NCBI RefSeq assembly: GCF_018861025.1
Contig: NZ_JAHKQH010000045.1
Span: 124,001-188,000 of the forward strand
Direction: 5' to 3'
Source of the DNA: Psychrosphaera sp. B3R10
Lineage (GTDB): Bacteria; Pseudomonadota; Gammaproteobacteria; Enterobacterales; Alteromonadaceae
Length of the DNA: 64,000 nt
Below the pieces are notes generated by a model. The model was not told the DNA's origin, made no database searches, and was given only the letters and a program-made list of their open reading frames with translations. Below are positions 1,140 to 8,112 of the stretch, piece by piece. Each line of letters begins with the position of its first letter. Positions within the stretch are counted from its first letter, which is position 1. The translations under genes and the position numbers were made by a program.

Positions 1140-2750
1140 TTAGGTAGTCGCTTGGATTAGTAAATTTTGACTAATCGCGTCGACTAATTGGTCAAGAGCA
1201 ATTGGTTTAGTGAGAAAGCTATCAAATAAGGCTTTCTCTCTACTTGACCTATACACATCTGCGGTAAGTGCTAGGATCGGAATTTTGACTTTGTTCGCTC
1301 TTAGCCGGCGAGTGGCTTCTATCCCACTTATTCCCGGTAAATGAATATCCATCAAAACTAAGTCAAAATCAGCATTTGTACCAAAGGTTACAGCCTCTTC
1401 GCCAGTCCCTACGATTTTAAACTGCACCGGTATTGCGCCTAACAAGGCTGCAATAACCATTTGATTGACTTTATTATCTTCAACAACAAGTATGTTTGTC
1501 GTGTCTGGGATGTTCTTTGTTTGTATATTGCTGGACGAGGGCGTCGGTACATTCTTATAAGGCAGAGACACAGTTACTGTTGTGCCGACTTTGTTTTTAC
1601 TTTGAACATCGATATGACCATGCATGAGTTCGACTAAGCCCTTAGTAATCGATAGCCCTAAGCCCGAACCTTCATTGTTTTGTGATTGCCCCGTAATTTG
1701 CGCAAACTGATTAAATAGGTAAGGGATCTTTTCAGTTTGAATTCCAATACCGCTATCGACGACTTTTAATATCAGTGTCTCATTAAGCACTGATGCACTC
1801 ACAATGACCTTGGAGTTTGAATGACTAAACTTGATGGCATTGTTTATTATATTAGATAAAACACAACCAAATTTAGCTTCATCAATTGCCACTGTTTTAG
1901 GAATATCATTGGCTATTTGGACATCAACTTTAATGCTTTTTTCGTTGGCCTTGATCATTAAGTTGTTTACGACAAATTTGATATAGTCAGAAGGGTCAGA
2001 ATGCGTAATTTCTAGATTTAACACACCAGCATCAATTTTACCGACCTCCAATAAGGCATTCAATGTTTTTAACATTTGCTTGCCGCTTAAGTCTATTTGC
2101 GACAAGTTTTCAGTGACGGCGGGAAATTGCGCTGCGAGTTCGACATTTTTCGTCAACAAGTCGGAAAGGCCAATGATTGCATTCAGAGGGGTTCGCACGT
2201 CATGGGAAATATTAGACAAAAACGATTCTTTGTAGCTGTTTGCTAAAATGAGCTTGGTACTTTGTAATTTTAATTCTAGTTGAGACATCACGGACGTTGC
2301 CAAAGTAAGCAATGATTTACTTTGCTTTGAACTCAATGTTTTAGGTCGGTCACTGGCAACGCAAATCGTGCCTATATTTAGACCTGATGGGGATTTAAGG
2401 GGCGCTCCTGCATAAAATCTAATGTGTGGAGAATTGGTCACGAGTGGGTTGTCAGCAAACCGTTCGTCTAACATAGTGTCACGAACTTCAAATATTTCAT
2501 CTTGTAAAATTGCATGGGCACAAAACGCTACGTCACGACTTGTGCAGTCTATATCGACACCAATCCGAGATTTATACCATTGTCGCTTTGCATCTACTAA
2601 GCTAATCATTGCAATTGGGCATTCACATATTTCAGACGCCAATATTGTTAAGTCATCAAAAGCTTTTTCATGTTCTGTATCAAGTATCCCATAGGAAAAT
2701 AAGGTCTTCAGACGTTCTTTTTCATTTTTAGGTAAATCAGCAATTTTCAT
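1140..2750 (-). CDS. GAF-domain hybrid sensor histidine kinase/response regulator
   Basis: 536-residue soluble hybrid kinase. Residues about 20-155 form a GAF domain of the type found in many marine-bacterial sensors (CPIAMISLVDAKRQWYK). A HisKA domain follows with H-box ISHDVRTPLN (phospho-acceptor His183), then a HATPase_c domain with N-box near 300, DSGIG near 332 and GSGLGLSI near 361, and a C-terminal receiver domain (420-530) with acidic pair VVEDN, phospho-acceptor Asp468 in LVLMDIHLPG and conserved Lys515 in FLTKPI. No membrane segment is apparent, so the signal is cytoplasmic. No separate partner gene adjoins it; yajQ is convergent. The signal is unknown. Confidence 0.9.
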   Translation of the reverse strand: MKIADLPKNEKERLKTLFSYGILDTEHEKAFDDLTILASEICECPIAMISLVDAKRQWYKSRIGVDIDCTSRDVAFCAHAILQDEIFEVRDTMLDERFADNPLVTNSPHIRFYAGAPLKSPSGLNIGTICVASDRPKTLSSKQSKSLLTLATSVMSQLELKLQSTKLILANSYKESFLSNISHDVRTPLNAIIGLSDLLTKNVELAAQFPAVTENLSQIDLSGKQMLKTLNALLEVGKIDAGVLNLEITHSDPSDYIKFVVNNLMIKANEKSIKVDVQIANDIPKTVAIDEAKFGCVLSNIINNAIKFSHSNSKVIVSASVLNETLILKVVDSGIGIQTEKIPYLFNQFAQITGQSQNNEGSGLGLSITKGLVELMHGHIDVQSKNKVGTTVTVSLPYKNVPTPSSSNIQTKNIPDTTNILVVEDNKVNQMVIAALLGAIPVQFKIVGTGEEAVTFGTNADFDLVLMDIHLPGISGIEATRRLRANKVKIPILALTADVYRSSREKALFDSFLTKPIALDQLVDAISQNLLIQATT

Positions 2751-3271
2751 AATAAGTGTACCGAGTAATTGATTACGTCCATTTATTTCCGCCTATCGTG
2801 TAAAAATAGCTTGCGAACCGTCAGCATCAATTTTACTCATTGCAGTTGTCTGTTATAAGCGAGCAAGTTACATCGCAAGTTTATTGATATTGCTTATTAA
2901 CAATATGTTTTTACCCAAGTAAGTTGTAAATATCCCCACCGCTTCGTTTATACATGTACCTTCAATTACGCAAGAAATGCTCTAGCGGTAAAAATTAAAA
3001 TCGACTCTTAATTAGATTATAGACAGTAAATAAAATGTTGAGGGACTAATTTTGATCACTTTTAATGGAGTAAAAAATAGGTGAGAAATAGTAGAATAAA
3101 AAGCTGAAATCCATATGATTCAGTAGCTGTGTGTGCATGTCTGGGTTTATTTGACAGAGCTTGATGATAAAAGCTGTAGGTGCGAAGTTCAGTTTGAATG
3201 TTAGTCGTATGAATAACTTAAAATGACGTAATTACACAATAGAATGTCGATAAGCGGTGATCTACAGTCAT
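2751..3271. other. Intergenic region, no gene recognised
   Basis: About 520 bases between the start of the hybrid kinase gene and the csrB terminator. AT-rich, stop codons in all frames, no convincing ribosome binding site followed by a reading frame and no strong hairpin. It must contain the promoter of the minus-strand kinase gene, but no clear -35/-10 pair stands out. Confidence 0.6.
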
Positions 3272-3299
3272 AAAAAAAGCAGCGCTAAGCTGCTTTTTT
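3272..3299 (-). terminator. Terminator of the CsrB-like RNA
   Basis: On the minus strand an 11-base stem (AAAAAAGCAGC / GCTGCTTTTTT) with a 5-base loop, followed by seven T. The A-tract also allows it to act on the plus strand. Confidence 0.9.
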
Positions 3300-3663
3300 C
3301 ATAGACTCTTTAAGCGTCCTGCTCAACTAATTCCGTTAGTATCGTCTTCCCTGTTTGCTCCTTGCCCTCAATTCCATTGAGTTCCCATCCATTTGGTCCC
3401 ATATTCCTTTGCGCTACCTTGCGTTCATGTCCTTATGATTCCAATTTCCATACCGACTGATTTCCGTATTGTTCGCTCCGTGCGTCCATATTAGTCCGTT
3501 AACGCATCCTACGTTTCCATCCCTAATAGTCCAATTAGCTTCCCATCTATCCCTATCCATTTCCTTGTGTTTAAGCTCCTGCTTTCCTACAATATTTCCT
3601 TATTCGCTTCCAGCGTTTCCTATCCCTGTGTGTTAAATCATTTAACACTCTCGTCGTTTCGTT
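3272..3663 (-). ncRNA. csrB: CsrB/RsmZ-type small RNA sequestering CsrA
   Basis: Minus-strand RNA of about 390 nt. The plus strand carries about 30 TCC triplets between 3315 and 3630, so the transcript contains about 30 GGA motifs, many as AGGA, TGGA or AGGGA in short loops, spaced roughly every 10-20 nt. This is the hallmark of CsrB/CsrC/RsmX-Z RNAs, which titrate the translational regulator CsrA; E. coli CsrB is 369 nt with 18-22 such motifs. The RNA has a 5' hairpin (arms GTGTTAAA/TTTAACAC) and a strong Rho-independent terminator. There is no reading frame. The 5' end is inferred from a -10-like box, so it may be off by several bases. Found by reading composition, not by covariance search. 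Confidence 0.85.
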
Positions 3664-3669
3664 GAGTTC

Positions 3670-3697
3670 ATATTAGAGACAAACGAAAAATGGGGAA
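3670..3697 (-). promoter_or_regulatory. Possible csrB promoter
   Basis: Minus strand: TAATAT at 3675-3670 as a -10 box, 16 bases downstream of a poor -35 (TTCCCC, 3697-3692). A weak -35 fits an activator-dependent promoter. Start of transcription would be near 3663. Confidence 0.4.
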
Positions 3698-3832
3698 CTA
3701 TGAAAATATTATGGTTTCTAAATATAAAAGTAGTCACATTGTGTTTTTATTGTTATTTTCCTTATGAAACAAGTGTTTATGGTGTTTTGTTCTATGGTTT
3801 AGTCGTCTATATTCAGAAAGGTCTTAGGGTAC

Positions 3833-3850
3833 TGTGAGATATGTCTTACA
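3833..3850. promoter_or_regulatory. GacA/UvrY-type activator palindrome upstream of csrB
   Basis: TGTGAG-ATATGT-CTTACA matches the known GacA/UvrY upstream activating sequence TGTAAG-N6-CTTACA at 11 of 12 defined positions. It lies about 170 bp upstream of the inferred csrB start, the usual distance for these boxes in rsmY/rsmZ/csrB promoters. The response regulator itself is not recognisable in this window. Confidence 0.75.
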
Positions 3851-4149
3851 AGTTTTCAGGCGGTATACGCTTTTGCCCATAACGTAACTTGGTATCCGCC
3901 ATTCAAAATGAATTTTTAGTCAACTGTAATGGTCTGCCGGGTCAACCCTTTATATACTAGAGTACTTTACGTGATGGTGAGTTTAGTCCAATATTTTCTT
4001 TTAATAACGACACTCAAGCAATGCAGGTTGATAGTAATTACGGAAATGCTAGCTTATTTAAAACTCCTGTTGCCAATGTCCTAGGATCAATGTGGTCGAT
4101 AATTATCAATAAGCAAGAGGATGACTTATTATTAAAGCGTAACGGTTAG
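3841..4149 (+). pseudogene. Possible decayed coding remnant, unrecognised
   Basis: One frame can be read from ATG 3841 to TAG 4147-4149 for 102 codons, interrupted only by stops at 3880 and 3958. The last 62 codons are open and look protein-like (for example QAMQVDSNYGNASLF, TPVANVLGSMW). No ribosome binding site or family was recognised. An 11-base direct repeat GCGGTATACGC occurs near each end of the segment (3860-3870 and 4421-4431). It could equally be chance openness in intergenic DNA. Confidence 0.25.
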
Positions 4150-4243
4150 TTATTTTCTTGTAGTAAGAATTTGTTTGGATATGATGAAAGGAAAGTCTAT
4201 AGGCACTTTTAGTGAATTATTTATCGTTTCTAAACAACTTCTA

Positions 4244-4266
4244 ACGCGAATTTTGACGCGAATTTT
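4244..4266. repeat. 12-bp tandem duplication
   Basis: ACGCGAATTTT occurs twice, 12 bases apart (4244-4254 and 4256-4266), in non-coding DNA upstream of yacL. Looks like a simple local duplication. Confidence 0.6.
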
Positions 4267-4452
4267 ACGGAAATGCTTCAATTGGTTATTCCTAATCTAG
4301 TTGCAGCGCTTAAGCTACTTAACAAGAATACCCACTTATTTTTAATATCCGCAGATTATTCATTAAGGCTTTTTGTTTAAAACAACTACTATAAGTTAAT
4401 ACGACACTAGCGTAATGCGAGCGGTATACGCAATTACAACAAAGGACTTAAC

Positions 4453-4867: not shown

Positions 4868-6619
4868 ATGTTAAATAGTACAAATTCACCTCGTCATTTT
4901 GTAGTGGCCACGTTGGCATTTTTTGCTTCGTTTGTTGTGATTATTTTTATGTCACAAATGCAAACAGCCATCTTTCTAAACTATGATTTTTTTGTAAAAG
5001 TTAAAAGCTTCAAGGCAGTACTGTGTTTGTCTGCGCTATTTTATCTTTCATTTTTAACAAAAAGTTATTTGGGCAGTGTATTACGTTGGGATCGTTTTAA
5101 ATGGCATATACCGACTATATTGGTAGCACACGGCATTGAATCAACATTTTATGGGTATGTTGATAATCCCGCATACTGGGTTGTCATTAGCTGTATAACA
5201 TTAATTATTTCCGCCGTTGTTACGCTATTTTATGTTGTATCCCAGATAAAAAAAATCAAAAAAGAATGGCTGATTAATATTCTAATTGGTACCGGGTTAA
5301 TTTTTAGCTGTGTTTATGCATTTACATTAAATGTGAATTTTAATCATATTGATGAATTCAGTTTGTTGCTTGTCATACTGGTTACGTTTTCAGCCTCGTG
5401 TTTAATTTTGTCTTCATTACTGCTGTTGAGTCATCCCCATAGTTCGCAACGTGAAATGCATTCTGTACCTTTGGTCATAGCTATTATTTCTTTATTTGAA
5501 ATATTTGGTCGGGAAGGGTTCGTTGTCTGGTGGGGAGCGGTAATTCTCCATGTATTTCTATTTTATTTGTTGGTTGTCACAATTGTTAGAATAAATCAGT
5601 CAGTAGCTCGCGTGATGAATATGTATCAACAAGGCTTAGATACGAATTTAACTCCATACTTTTGTGGTAGCCTAAATGGCCGTATCTTGTTTGCTAATCA
5701 AGCATACAAGCGTCTTGTTGGCGAGAAAATTGATAGCAACACCAAAGAATTACATAATGTTTTGTTGGAACACCCCCTTTGGCCAGAAATTAAAGAAAAA
5801 TTTTGTACAAAAGGTTTTTATAAAGCGGAAACAGTAATCAATCGAAATAACTTAGCCCCACATACAGTGTCGTTACATATTAAACCATTGCATCCAGAAA
5901 ACGATTGGTACCAAGCGTCTTTTACCGATTTGGAATCTCGAATCGAAATCCAAAAGAATCGTGATGATGCGCTTGAAAAACTCGCTCAATTGTCAAAAAA
6001 CTTGATGGAAAAGCAGGAAGAAGAAAGACGATACTTTGCTAAAGAACTTCACGACGAAATTGGCCAAGGTTTGACGCTTCTTAAAATTCAGCATCAATTG
6101 CCTGAACCGGATATTGAACTAATTAATCATGTGCTAAACGAGTTATTGGAATCGGTTCGTAATCTATCACTTAATTTAAGACCTTCAATTTTGGACGATA
6201 TGGGGGTATCTGTTGCATTAGGCTGGCTAGCAGAACGACAGGTTAAATTCAGTACATTAAATGTTGAGACTAAGATCCAAACTGATGTTCCGAGGATGTC
6301 CGAAAAATTGGAGATTTCTATTTTTAGGATTGCACAGGAAGCGTTTACCAATATTCATAAATACGCTAAAGCGACAAAAGTTAAGCTCGAGTTCACCTTT
6401 GTTGATAATACAATTACATTATCAGTAATCGACGACGGCATTGGTTTTGATGTAGGCTCTAAGTTAAATTTTGCAATCAAGAGTCAAAGTTTAGGACTGG
6501 TAAGTATTAGAGAGCGTGCTTTTACTATTAATGGAAAATTGCAGTTAAATTCCAGTCCTGAAACTGGGACATCGATTAAACTGGTGGTGCCTTTTGTTGG
6601 CAGAGGTAACGTAGTTTGA
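4868..6619 (+). CDS. Membrane sensor histidine kinase, NarX/HisKA_3 type
   Basis: 583 residues. The first about 245 contain seven or so hydrophobic segments (a multi-pass sensor region of no family I recognise), then a PAS-like stretch (about 258-340), a coiled coil and a HisKA_3 domain with motif KELHDEIGQGLTLL (phospho-acceptor His395). The HATPase_c domain shows IAQEAFTNIHKYAKA, DDGIGF and SLGLVSIRERA, typical of kinases that pair with NarL/FixJ regulators. Such a regulator is encoded two genes downstream, supporting one two-component system. ATG at 4868; its TGA overlaps the next gene's TTG start (TTGA). The signal is not known. Confidence 0.9.
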   Translation: MLNSTNSPRHFVVATLAFFASFVVIIFMSQMQTAIFLNYDFFVKVKSFKAVLCLSALFYLSFLTKSYLGSVLRWDRFKWHIPTILVAHGIESTFYGYVDNPAYWVVISCITLIISAVVTLFYVVSQIKKIKKEWLINILIGTGLIFSCVYAFTLNVNFNHIDEFSLLLVILVTFSASCLILSSLLLLSHPHSSQREMHSVPLVIAIISLFEIFGREGFVVWWGAVILHVFLFYLLVVTIVRINQSVARVMNMYQQGLDTNLTPYFCGSLNGRILFANQAYKRLVGEKIDSNTKELHNVLLEHPLWPEIKEKFCTKGFYKAETVINRNNLAPHTVSLHIKPLHPENDWYQASFTDLESRIEIQKNRDDALEKLAQLSKNLMEKQEEERRYFAKELHDEIGQGLTLLKIQHQLPEPDIELINHVLNELLESVRNLSLNLRPSILDDMGVSVALGWLAERQVKFSTLNVETKIQTDVPRMSEKLEISIFRIAQEAFTNIHKYAKATKVKLEFTFVDNTITLSVIDDGIGFDVGSKLNFAIKSQSLGLVSIRERAFTINGKLQLNSSPETGTSIKLVVPFVGRGNVV

Positions 6620-7443
6620 AATCTCTTAAATATATAGTCGTTGTGTTGCTGGTATTGGCATTTAGTGCAAATGCTAACGCACAGGCCAATTTTAATGTGG
6701 TTTATAAGGTCATTACCAGCGCCGATAATCAGCTATTTTTAGTTACCGATAATGGGACTTGGAAAGTAGACGGTCAATATATTGTTAGAGTTGACTCTGT
6801 AACAGTTGAAAAGCTTAAACTTGCTAATTTTGATTTTCCAAAACCTGTTTTATCGTTTAACCATGTTTCAGAAAACCCAAGTTGGCATGGCATTTTTATT
6901 GTTATCGTAGGGATATTACTTTGTATTGCACTATTTATTTTGCAGCGCGATTCAAGCCTTAAAGATAAACAATATATGACTACGTTGAGGCAACAGAAAC
7001 GATTAATGGATTTGTGTTTCTGGGTGACAGGTGACATTGTATTAGATTGTGATTTAGAACAAAATTTTGTCGAAAAAATCACAGACAGTAAGCTGTTTTT
7101 TGATCTGGATGGAATTACATTTTTATCTGACAGCTACTTAAATCAGATCCACCCTGACGATAAATCAATGTTTCAAACGCAATATCAAGCTATATTGGCA
7201 GCTGGCCACAATCGATTTCAATTGATGTACCGATTTTCTGATAACAATGGCGATTGGCGATGGATTGTTGAAAGGGGGTGCGTCATCGAACGTGCGTCTA
7301 ACGGAGAAGCAAAACGAATAGTAACGAATTTGCGAGATGAAAGTGAGTTGCGACGTGAGCAAAATAATCTGGTTAGAATTAATCATGCTCTGGAAAAGAA
7401 AATTGCAGCGATTAAAGTGCAAGAGCAGGCAAACAAAAACTAA
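6616..7443 (+). CDS. Secreted/membrane-anchored PAS-domain protein of the kinase operon
   Basis: 275 residues: signal peptide (1-22, cleavage after ANA-QA), a periplasmic part of about 70 residues, one membrane segment (about 93-112, WHGIFIVIVGILLCIALFIL), then a cytoplasmic PAS_3-like domain ending WRWIVERGCVIERASNGEAK...DESELRR and a short coiled coil. No kinase, GGDEF or EAL domain follows, so it is probably a sensing or adaptor subunit for the upstream kinase. TTG start at 6616 inside the kinase stop codon indicates translational coupling. The pairing with the kinase is inferred from gene order. Confidence 0.7.
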   Translation: MKSLKYIVVVLLVLAFSANANAQANFNVVYKVITSADNQLFLVTDNGTWKVDGQYIVRVDSVTVEKLKLANFDFPKPVLSFNHVSENPSWHGIFIVIVGILLCIALFILQRDSSLKDKQYMTTLRQQKRLMDLCFWVTGDIVLDCDLEQNFVEKITDSKLFFDLDGITFLSDSYLNQIHPDDKSMFQTQYQAILAAGHNRFQLMYRFSDNNGDWRWIVERGCVIERASNGEAKRIVTNLRDESELRREQNNLVRINHALEKKIAAIKVQEQANKN

Positions 7444-7458
7444 AATAGGTGATAGTTA

Positions 7459-8112
7459 ATGGAGAAATACACCATATTATTTGCAGATGATCATACCTTG
7501 ATAAGACAGGGGATCATCAGCTTAGTCAGACACTTTGCCTTTATTGATAGTGACAACATATTACAGGCAAGTAATGGCCTAGAGGCCATCGCTATCGTTA
7601 AACGTGCGCATCCTGATGTTGTTGTTATGGACGTTTCTATGCCACAGATGAACGGACTTGAAGCGACCCAACTCATTAAAAGTCAGTTTCCGGAAGTGAA
7701 GGTGCTTATATTGTCTCATTACAATAACGAACCTTATGTGTTAAGAGCCTTAAAAGCTGGTGCCGATGGTTATATGTTAAAAGACGCTGCGGTAAGCGAA
7801 TTGGAGCAAGGTTTATTAAATGTGCTACATGACAAATTGTATATTAGTCCGGATATCGATCAGAATATTATCGCAAAGTTGAATAATAGCCCTAACGGAC
7901 TGAATGACGCATTAGAATTGTTAACTGCACGGCAGCGTAATATTCTACAATTAATTGCAGAAGGTCATTCTACTAAAGATATAGCCGAAAAACTTTTCCT
8001 GAGTGTAAAAACCATTGAAGCTCATCGTTCTAATATAATGGATAGACTCGCTATACGTGATATCCCTGGGTTGGTTCGTTTTGCAATTCGAGTTGGACTG
8101 ATTCAAGCCTAA
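7459..8112 (+). CDS. NarL/FixJ-family response regulator
   Basis: 217 residues. Receiver domain with acidic pocket Asp10-Asp11, phospho-acceptor Asp58 (VVVMDVSMP) and Lys108 (YMLKDA), then a LuxR-type helix-turn-helix (about 154-198, LTARQRNILQLIAEGHSTKDIA...SVKTIEAHRSNIMDRL). It is 15 bases downstream of the PAS protein gene and forms the output partner of the HisKA_3 kinase. It does not closely resemble UvrY/GacA by eye, so it should not be assumed to be the activator of the nearby csrB. Targets unknown. Confidence 0.93.
   Translation: MEKYTILFADDHTLIRQGIISLVRHFAFIDSDNILQASNGLEAIAIVKRAHPDVVVMDVSMPQMNGLEATQLIKSQFPEVKVLILSHYNNEPYVLRALKAGADGYMLKDAAVSELEQGLLNVLHDKLYISPDIDQNIIAKLNNSPNGLNDALELLTARQRNILQLIAEGHSTKDIAEKLFLSVKTIEAHRSNIMDRLAIRDIPGLVRFAIRVGLIQA

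Follow-up and report, generated by a model that had tools for sequence, protein, structure and literature searches.

The 64,000-nucleotide stretch of the Psychrosphaera sp. B3R10 genome analysed here (the window) contains a gene desert of 1.70 kb (2751-4452), with the ORF of a hybrid kinase on one side and a yacL-like ORF on the other, and the question raised by this gap is whether it holds the gene of a regulatory RNA. An earlier note on this DNA had read it as a 1.7 kb desert, an extent with which our boundaries agree, hiding a CsrB-type sRNA with about 30 TCC triplets, i.e. GGA in the minus-strand RNA, within about 330 bases. The count is borne out: the 393-nt minus-strand piece 3271-3663 contains 30 GGA motifs (TCC on the plus strand) in a span of 309 nt, more than any of its shuffled versions, whether these keep the dinucleotides (n=1000, mean 16.0, maximum 24) or not (n=2000, mean 13.1, maximum 25). 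Against a background from which segments near 2900-4000 were excluded, other 330-nt minus-strand segments of the 64 kb have a mean of 2.3 GGA and a maximum of 10, and plus-strand segments a maximum of 11. Many GGA motifs, here intergenic and far above chance, characterise the CsrB/C-type class of CsrA-sequestering sRNAs, as does their placement in loops and single strands. All 30 are predicted to be unpaired at P>0.5, the mean predicted unpaired probability being 0.82 for GGA versus 0.42 for other triplets, and 8 fall in hairpin loops of the best predicted fold of the RNA at 3271-3663. The slightly longer piece 3680-3270 folds better than its shuffles (z = -3.64). The features of the locus are collected in Table 1.

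Table 1. Positions in the window of the csrB-like gene and its signals, with the csrC candidate found elsewhere in the genome.
Feature	Position	Strand	Remarks
CsrB-like sRNA, ~390 nt	3271..3663	-	30 GGA, copies in the genus; predicted transcript, start inferred
Array of 30 GGA (CsrA-binding motifs by class)	3317..3625	-	median spacing 10 nt
Intrinsic terminator hairpin and U run	3272..3300	-	predicted fold; hairpin and T run end 8/8 other copies
Putative UvrY/GacA box TGTAAGACATATCTCACA	3833..3850	-	171-175 bp to 5' motif in 9/9 copies
Probable -10 element TAATAT	3670..3675	-	TAnTAT here in 7/9 copies, read by eye
Possible IHF site TAAACACTTGTTT (weak)	3767..3779	-	1 mismatch to consensus
Conserved 5' domain: ACGACGAGA, first hairpin, CGC-UGGAA-GCG and GC-AGGA-GC hairpins	3575..3657	-	alignment A1, model R1
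Candidate csrC: GGA-bearing RNA, UvrY-like box, terminator	L108 ~1155-1480 (G000:C48), outside the window	-	between cytochrome c/engB and yihI

RNAs of this class end in a Rho-independent terminator. The strong terminator claimed for one end of the array is indeed found as a predicted GC hairpin with a U run, of 14 bp at 3270-3302 or of 12 bp when a shorter piece is folded, and is kept in the 8 other copies described below. A simple terminator scan listed none at the locus, probably because it counted the A/T run into the stem. Upstream of the array, where TGTGAG-N6-CTTACA had been reported at a distance of about 170 bp, the palindrome at 3833-3850 reads TGTGAGATATGTCTTACA; 175 bp separate it from the conserved motif ACGACGAGA, whose first base is 3657. 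The centre of this putative UvrY/GacA box is about 178 bp upstream of the start (3663) that we infer from the TAATAT -10 element, as in the CsrB/C class, in which the box stands near -180. The strict pattern TGTRAGN6CTYACA occurs at two places in the 4.7 Mb genome and its reversed control at none; no GGA cluster accompanies the second (L049, at most 3 GGA per 300 nt). A promoter scan gave 5 sites versus 6.6 expected, and the presumed csrB-like promoter is absent from its list. Six of the 9 copies share the offset (52-53) of the best sense-strand match to the IHF consensus; 18.6% of shuffles equal the match in this copy (2.4% to 95% over the copies), and because such matches are common in shuffles an IHF site upstream of the csrB-like RNA is only suggestive. 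Downstream of the promoter, model R1 gives the 5' domain 98.5 bits, this copy being itself part of the model. In the first hairpin of this domain 3 of 7 pairs differ in both partners in at least one copy and 2 are invariant, while 4 of the 7, as drawn, do not hold in 2 or 3 copies out of 9; the CGC-UGGAA-GCG and GC-AGGA-GC hairpins are invariant among all 9.

The proteins with which a CsrB/C-type RNA works are all encoded in the genome: CsrA by a single match (63 aa, residues 1-57 nearly identical to CsrA proteins of solved structure), UvrY by a gene adjoining uvrC (391.9 bits, cut-off 280), and BarA (968.4 bits, cut-off 890). Given the GGA array, the terminator, a UvrY box at the right distance and the presence of CsrA, UvrY and BarA, sequence evidence makes it highly probable that the locus encodes a CsrB-type sponge RNA for CsrA. 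In the mechanism described for the class, phosphorylated UvrY activates transcription and the RNA binds many CsrA dimers, releasing their targets (PMC7652899). Here UvrY phosphorylated by BarA would bind the palindrome at 3833-3850 and activate the minus-strand promoter near 3670; the RNA of about 390 nt would expose some 30 GGA in hairpin loops and single-stranded stretches and, judging from its class, bind many CsrA dimers so as to free CsrA target mRNAs, and transcription is predicted to stop at the terminator hairpin. It might be argued that the RNA, though rich in GGA and controlled by UvrY, has its main partner not in CsrA but in another protein or in an mRNA, as CsrA binding is here predicted from sequence and Spot 42, an Hfq-binding sRNA, is described as also able to bind CsrA (PMC11882849). 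We consider this very improbable, since the 30 motifs are predicted to be accessible, 8 of them in hairpin loops, some are in short hairpins of the kind that CsrA is reported to prefer (PMC7652899), and the genome has a CsrA of the standard kind.

The search with the CsrB and RsmY/RsmZ covariance models, proposed in the earlier note as a check, came out negative. At gathering score Rfam has no match to the csrB-like RNA or anywhere in the desert, and at E up to 10 the RNA gives only sub-threshold scores, with PrrB_RsmZ (RF00166, 20.1 bits against a gathering score of 44), CsrC (RF00084, 16.3 against 61) and RsmY (RF00195, 15 against 57), two lower-scoring overlapping clan matches being left out. 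The only match of the CsrB model RF00018 (at least 71 bits required) in the whole genome has 10.6 bits and lies elsewhere. Because the other evidence is strong, we read this result as the limited reach of the Rfam models. The RsmZ and RsmY RNAs of Pseudomonas share the sponge logic and the GacA box; they differ from the RNA here in that their Rfam models are of 133 and 121 positions and score it only at the low values just given. E. coli CsrB is likewise a CsrA sponge of the GGA-array type with a UvrY palindrome near -180, its site TGTGAGAGATCTCTTACA being centred at -183/-182 (PMC4682653). Unlike the RNA here it is the subject of a matching model, RF00018, and it is quoted with 22 GGA (PMC11882849) versus 30. 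The neighbours also differ, a yacL-like gene here and syd beside csrB in Shigella (PMC4229854).

DNA searches of 60 genomes (our own, 7 of the genus and 52 others) found the 5' part of the csrB-like RNA in all 7 other genus genomes, from which 8 additional copies, two of them in G006, were extracted in full. These show a common order of box, 171-174 bp, conserved 5' motif, 23-30 GGA in 319-368 nt, and terminator, and 21-26 of their GGA are predicted to be unpaired at P>0.5; our own copy ties with that of G005 for the most among the 9. Although congeners align poorly in the middle of the array, they keep its number of minus-strand GGA, so that the pattern, rather than the letters, is conserved. 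Loss of the GGA pattern in close relatives, named in the earlier note as grounds for giving up the idea, is thus not seen, the pattern being kept in 7 of 7 genus genomes. A pattern scan of public genomes returned six stretches, four from Psychrosphaera (P. saromensis, P. haliotis and two further records) and two from contigs of a single gammaproteobacterial MAG; BLAST of the csrB-like region against plasmids gave no match. The second copy in G006 (L039 ~1878-2201, minus strand, G006:C204) has 23 GGA and its own box, and its 4.9 kb contig also bears kinase- and response-regulator-like stretches.

The gene neighbourhood is partly shared among these copies. A yacL-like gene is near csrB in 6 of the 8 additional copies, secF in 3 and a kinase-PAS-LuxR regulator cluster in 3, and in 2 (G001 and the second G006 copy) neither yacL nor secF was found on the stretch examined. 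The window has all three, with yajQ and the hybrid kinase between csrB and secF. Its cluster, at 4868-8112, comprises a sensor kinase, a PAS protein and a LuxR-type response regulator, likewise seen near csrB in 3 of 7 congeners; matches of the regulator to the MctR and UvrY/GacA models stay under the cut-offs.

A second Csr-like RNA lies elsewhere in the genome. Allowing up to 3 mismatches, the box pattern finds 11 places besides the csrB box and a control pattern 9, so that most of the 11 must be chance; the sole place leading further, C48:58596, belongs to a csrC-like RNA. Here yihI and a cytochrome c gene that adjoins engB (yihA), three names read by eye from translations, enclose a gap with a UvrY-like box, TGTGAGATATATCTCAAT. 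After the box comes a unit that has a terminator and bears 10 GGA in its last 320 nt. A similar unit precedes yihI in each of the 8 genomes of the genus; it has 8-10 GGA and is well conserved in its 3' part, while only some genomes keep the second half of the box. The Rfam CsrC model has no match to the unit here at E up to 1. Model R2, of the 3' part, finds 12 of 295 family genomes, 4 of them outside the genus and weak (37-43 bits); all four matches adjoin the same cytochrome c gene with 8-9 GGA nearby, and the roughly 3.1 kb examined include engB in three and yihI in two. The same locus, with all three genes and 8 GGA per 300 nt, was reached independently by a full UvrY box in another genus (L087). 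In Salmonella csrC is described between yihA and yihI (PMC2515195), and a listing for Shigella gives it these neighbours too (PMC4229854); the RNA upstream of yihI is therefore a good csrC candidate by position. This suggests that the organism has a CsrA sponge besides the csrB-like RNA, which is probably one of two, and it qualifies the description of the latter as 'the csrB of the organism': the CsrB-type hallmarks hold here and in congeners, the exclusiveness probably does not.

With a csrC-like RNA in place, and a long gene desert around it, the csrB-like locus could be thought a decayed or silent copy that the RNA at yihI has replaced. This is extremely unlikely, as the box, its spacing, the -10 element, the 5' domain and the terminator look intact and no other of the 9 copies has more GGA. 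That the plus strand instead encodes a short peptide in the 55-codon open frame 3469-3636, the GGA of the opposite strand being incidental, has next to no probability, given that the frame has no NCBIfam or Pfam match, that the array middle aligns poorly among congeners with its minus-strand GGA number maintained, and that the box spacing and terminator suit the minus strand. The other of the two short frames tested in the desert, 3961-4146 on the plus strand between box and yacL, likewise has no Pfam match and is possibly a gene remnant.

Returning to the CsrB-type sponge RNA, its distribution depends on what is searched for. Searching 295 genomes of the family with model R1, made from the 5' domain, retrieves 8 at E up to 0.01, every one of them from this genus. 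This restriction does not mean that other family genomes are without such an RNA, since UvrY boxes and GGA clusters are found outside the genus. A box is present in 34 of the 60 genomes, 26 of them outside the genus; loci were taken from 22 of these, one box each, and 20 were scored (L094 and L097 excluded). In 15 of the 20 the box has 15-25 GGA per 300 nt to one side and at most 8 to the other, the cluster beginning 173-181 bp after the box in 10 of the 15. Such a cluster is missing from the other 5, among them L087, whose box is at the csrC-like locus. Two loci in other genera stand out: 35 GGA are clustered downstream of the UvrY box at the centre of L096, and 33 follow that of L106, where two RNAs may lie in tandem. 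In view of the L096 cluster and the scored loci, the claim of more GGA than in E. coli CsrB stands as a count, 30 being high yet within the normal range and no outlier, and we regard the csrB-like RNA as a sound, if unexceptional, representative of a familiar class. Ten genomes outside the genus were rejected as relatives, their DNA match being short and confined to the terminator end (best E 3.1e-6). No tblastn match to yacL, secF or yajQ was obtained at the 22 loci with 1.5 kb flanks; with YacL identity only 27-34% even within the genus, this missing synteny is weak evidence of absence.

Analogues of this RNA have been described in other genera. NCBI places Psychrosphaera in the Pseudoalteromonadaceae, and in Pseudoalteromonas fuliginea Pf1 has a GacA-type box and is reported to bind CsrA, the GGA counts given being 21 or 25 for Pf1, depending on the paper, 21 for Pf2 and 9 for Pf3 (PMC9927453, PMC11882849); its authors state that Pf1 and Pf2 have no significant matches outside Pseudoalteromonas (PMC11882849). 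The A(N)GGA-rich Aln1a-c RNAs of the marine relative Alteromonas macleodii, the highest expressed genes in their data set, were concluded to sequester CsrA; unlike the RNA here, all three come from one 404-nt intergenic region (PMC5864184) and are necessarily much shorter one by one. For Marinomonas, too, Csr sRNAs with this design have been published (PMC8523701). In the collection of papers that we searched there was none on Psychrosphaera and CsrA, and the two returned for Colwellia, CsrA and csrB had, from their listing, no bearing.

It is possible, if rather doubtful, that csrB of Psychrosphaera is an array specific to the genus which gains and loses GGA-hairpin modules, its sponge capacity (23-30 motifs in 319-387 nt) being tuned from species to species with promoter, 5' domain and terminator unchanged, and that it works beside an older csrC-like RNA kept at yihI since before the split from the enterobacteria. 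Since Rfam does not find the csrB-like RNA, annotation based on it will miss a principal CsrA antagonist of the genus. A covariance model for the Alteromonadaceae could draw on the 9 copies and the csrC-like RNA, and so could studies of how sponge RNAs keep their function while losing sequence similarity.
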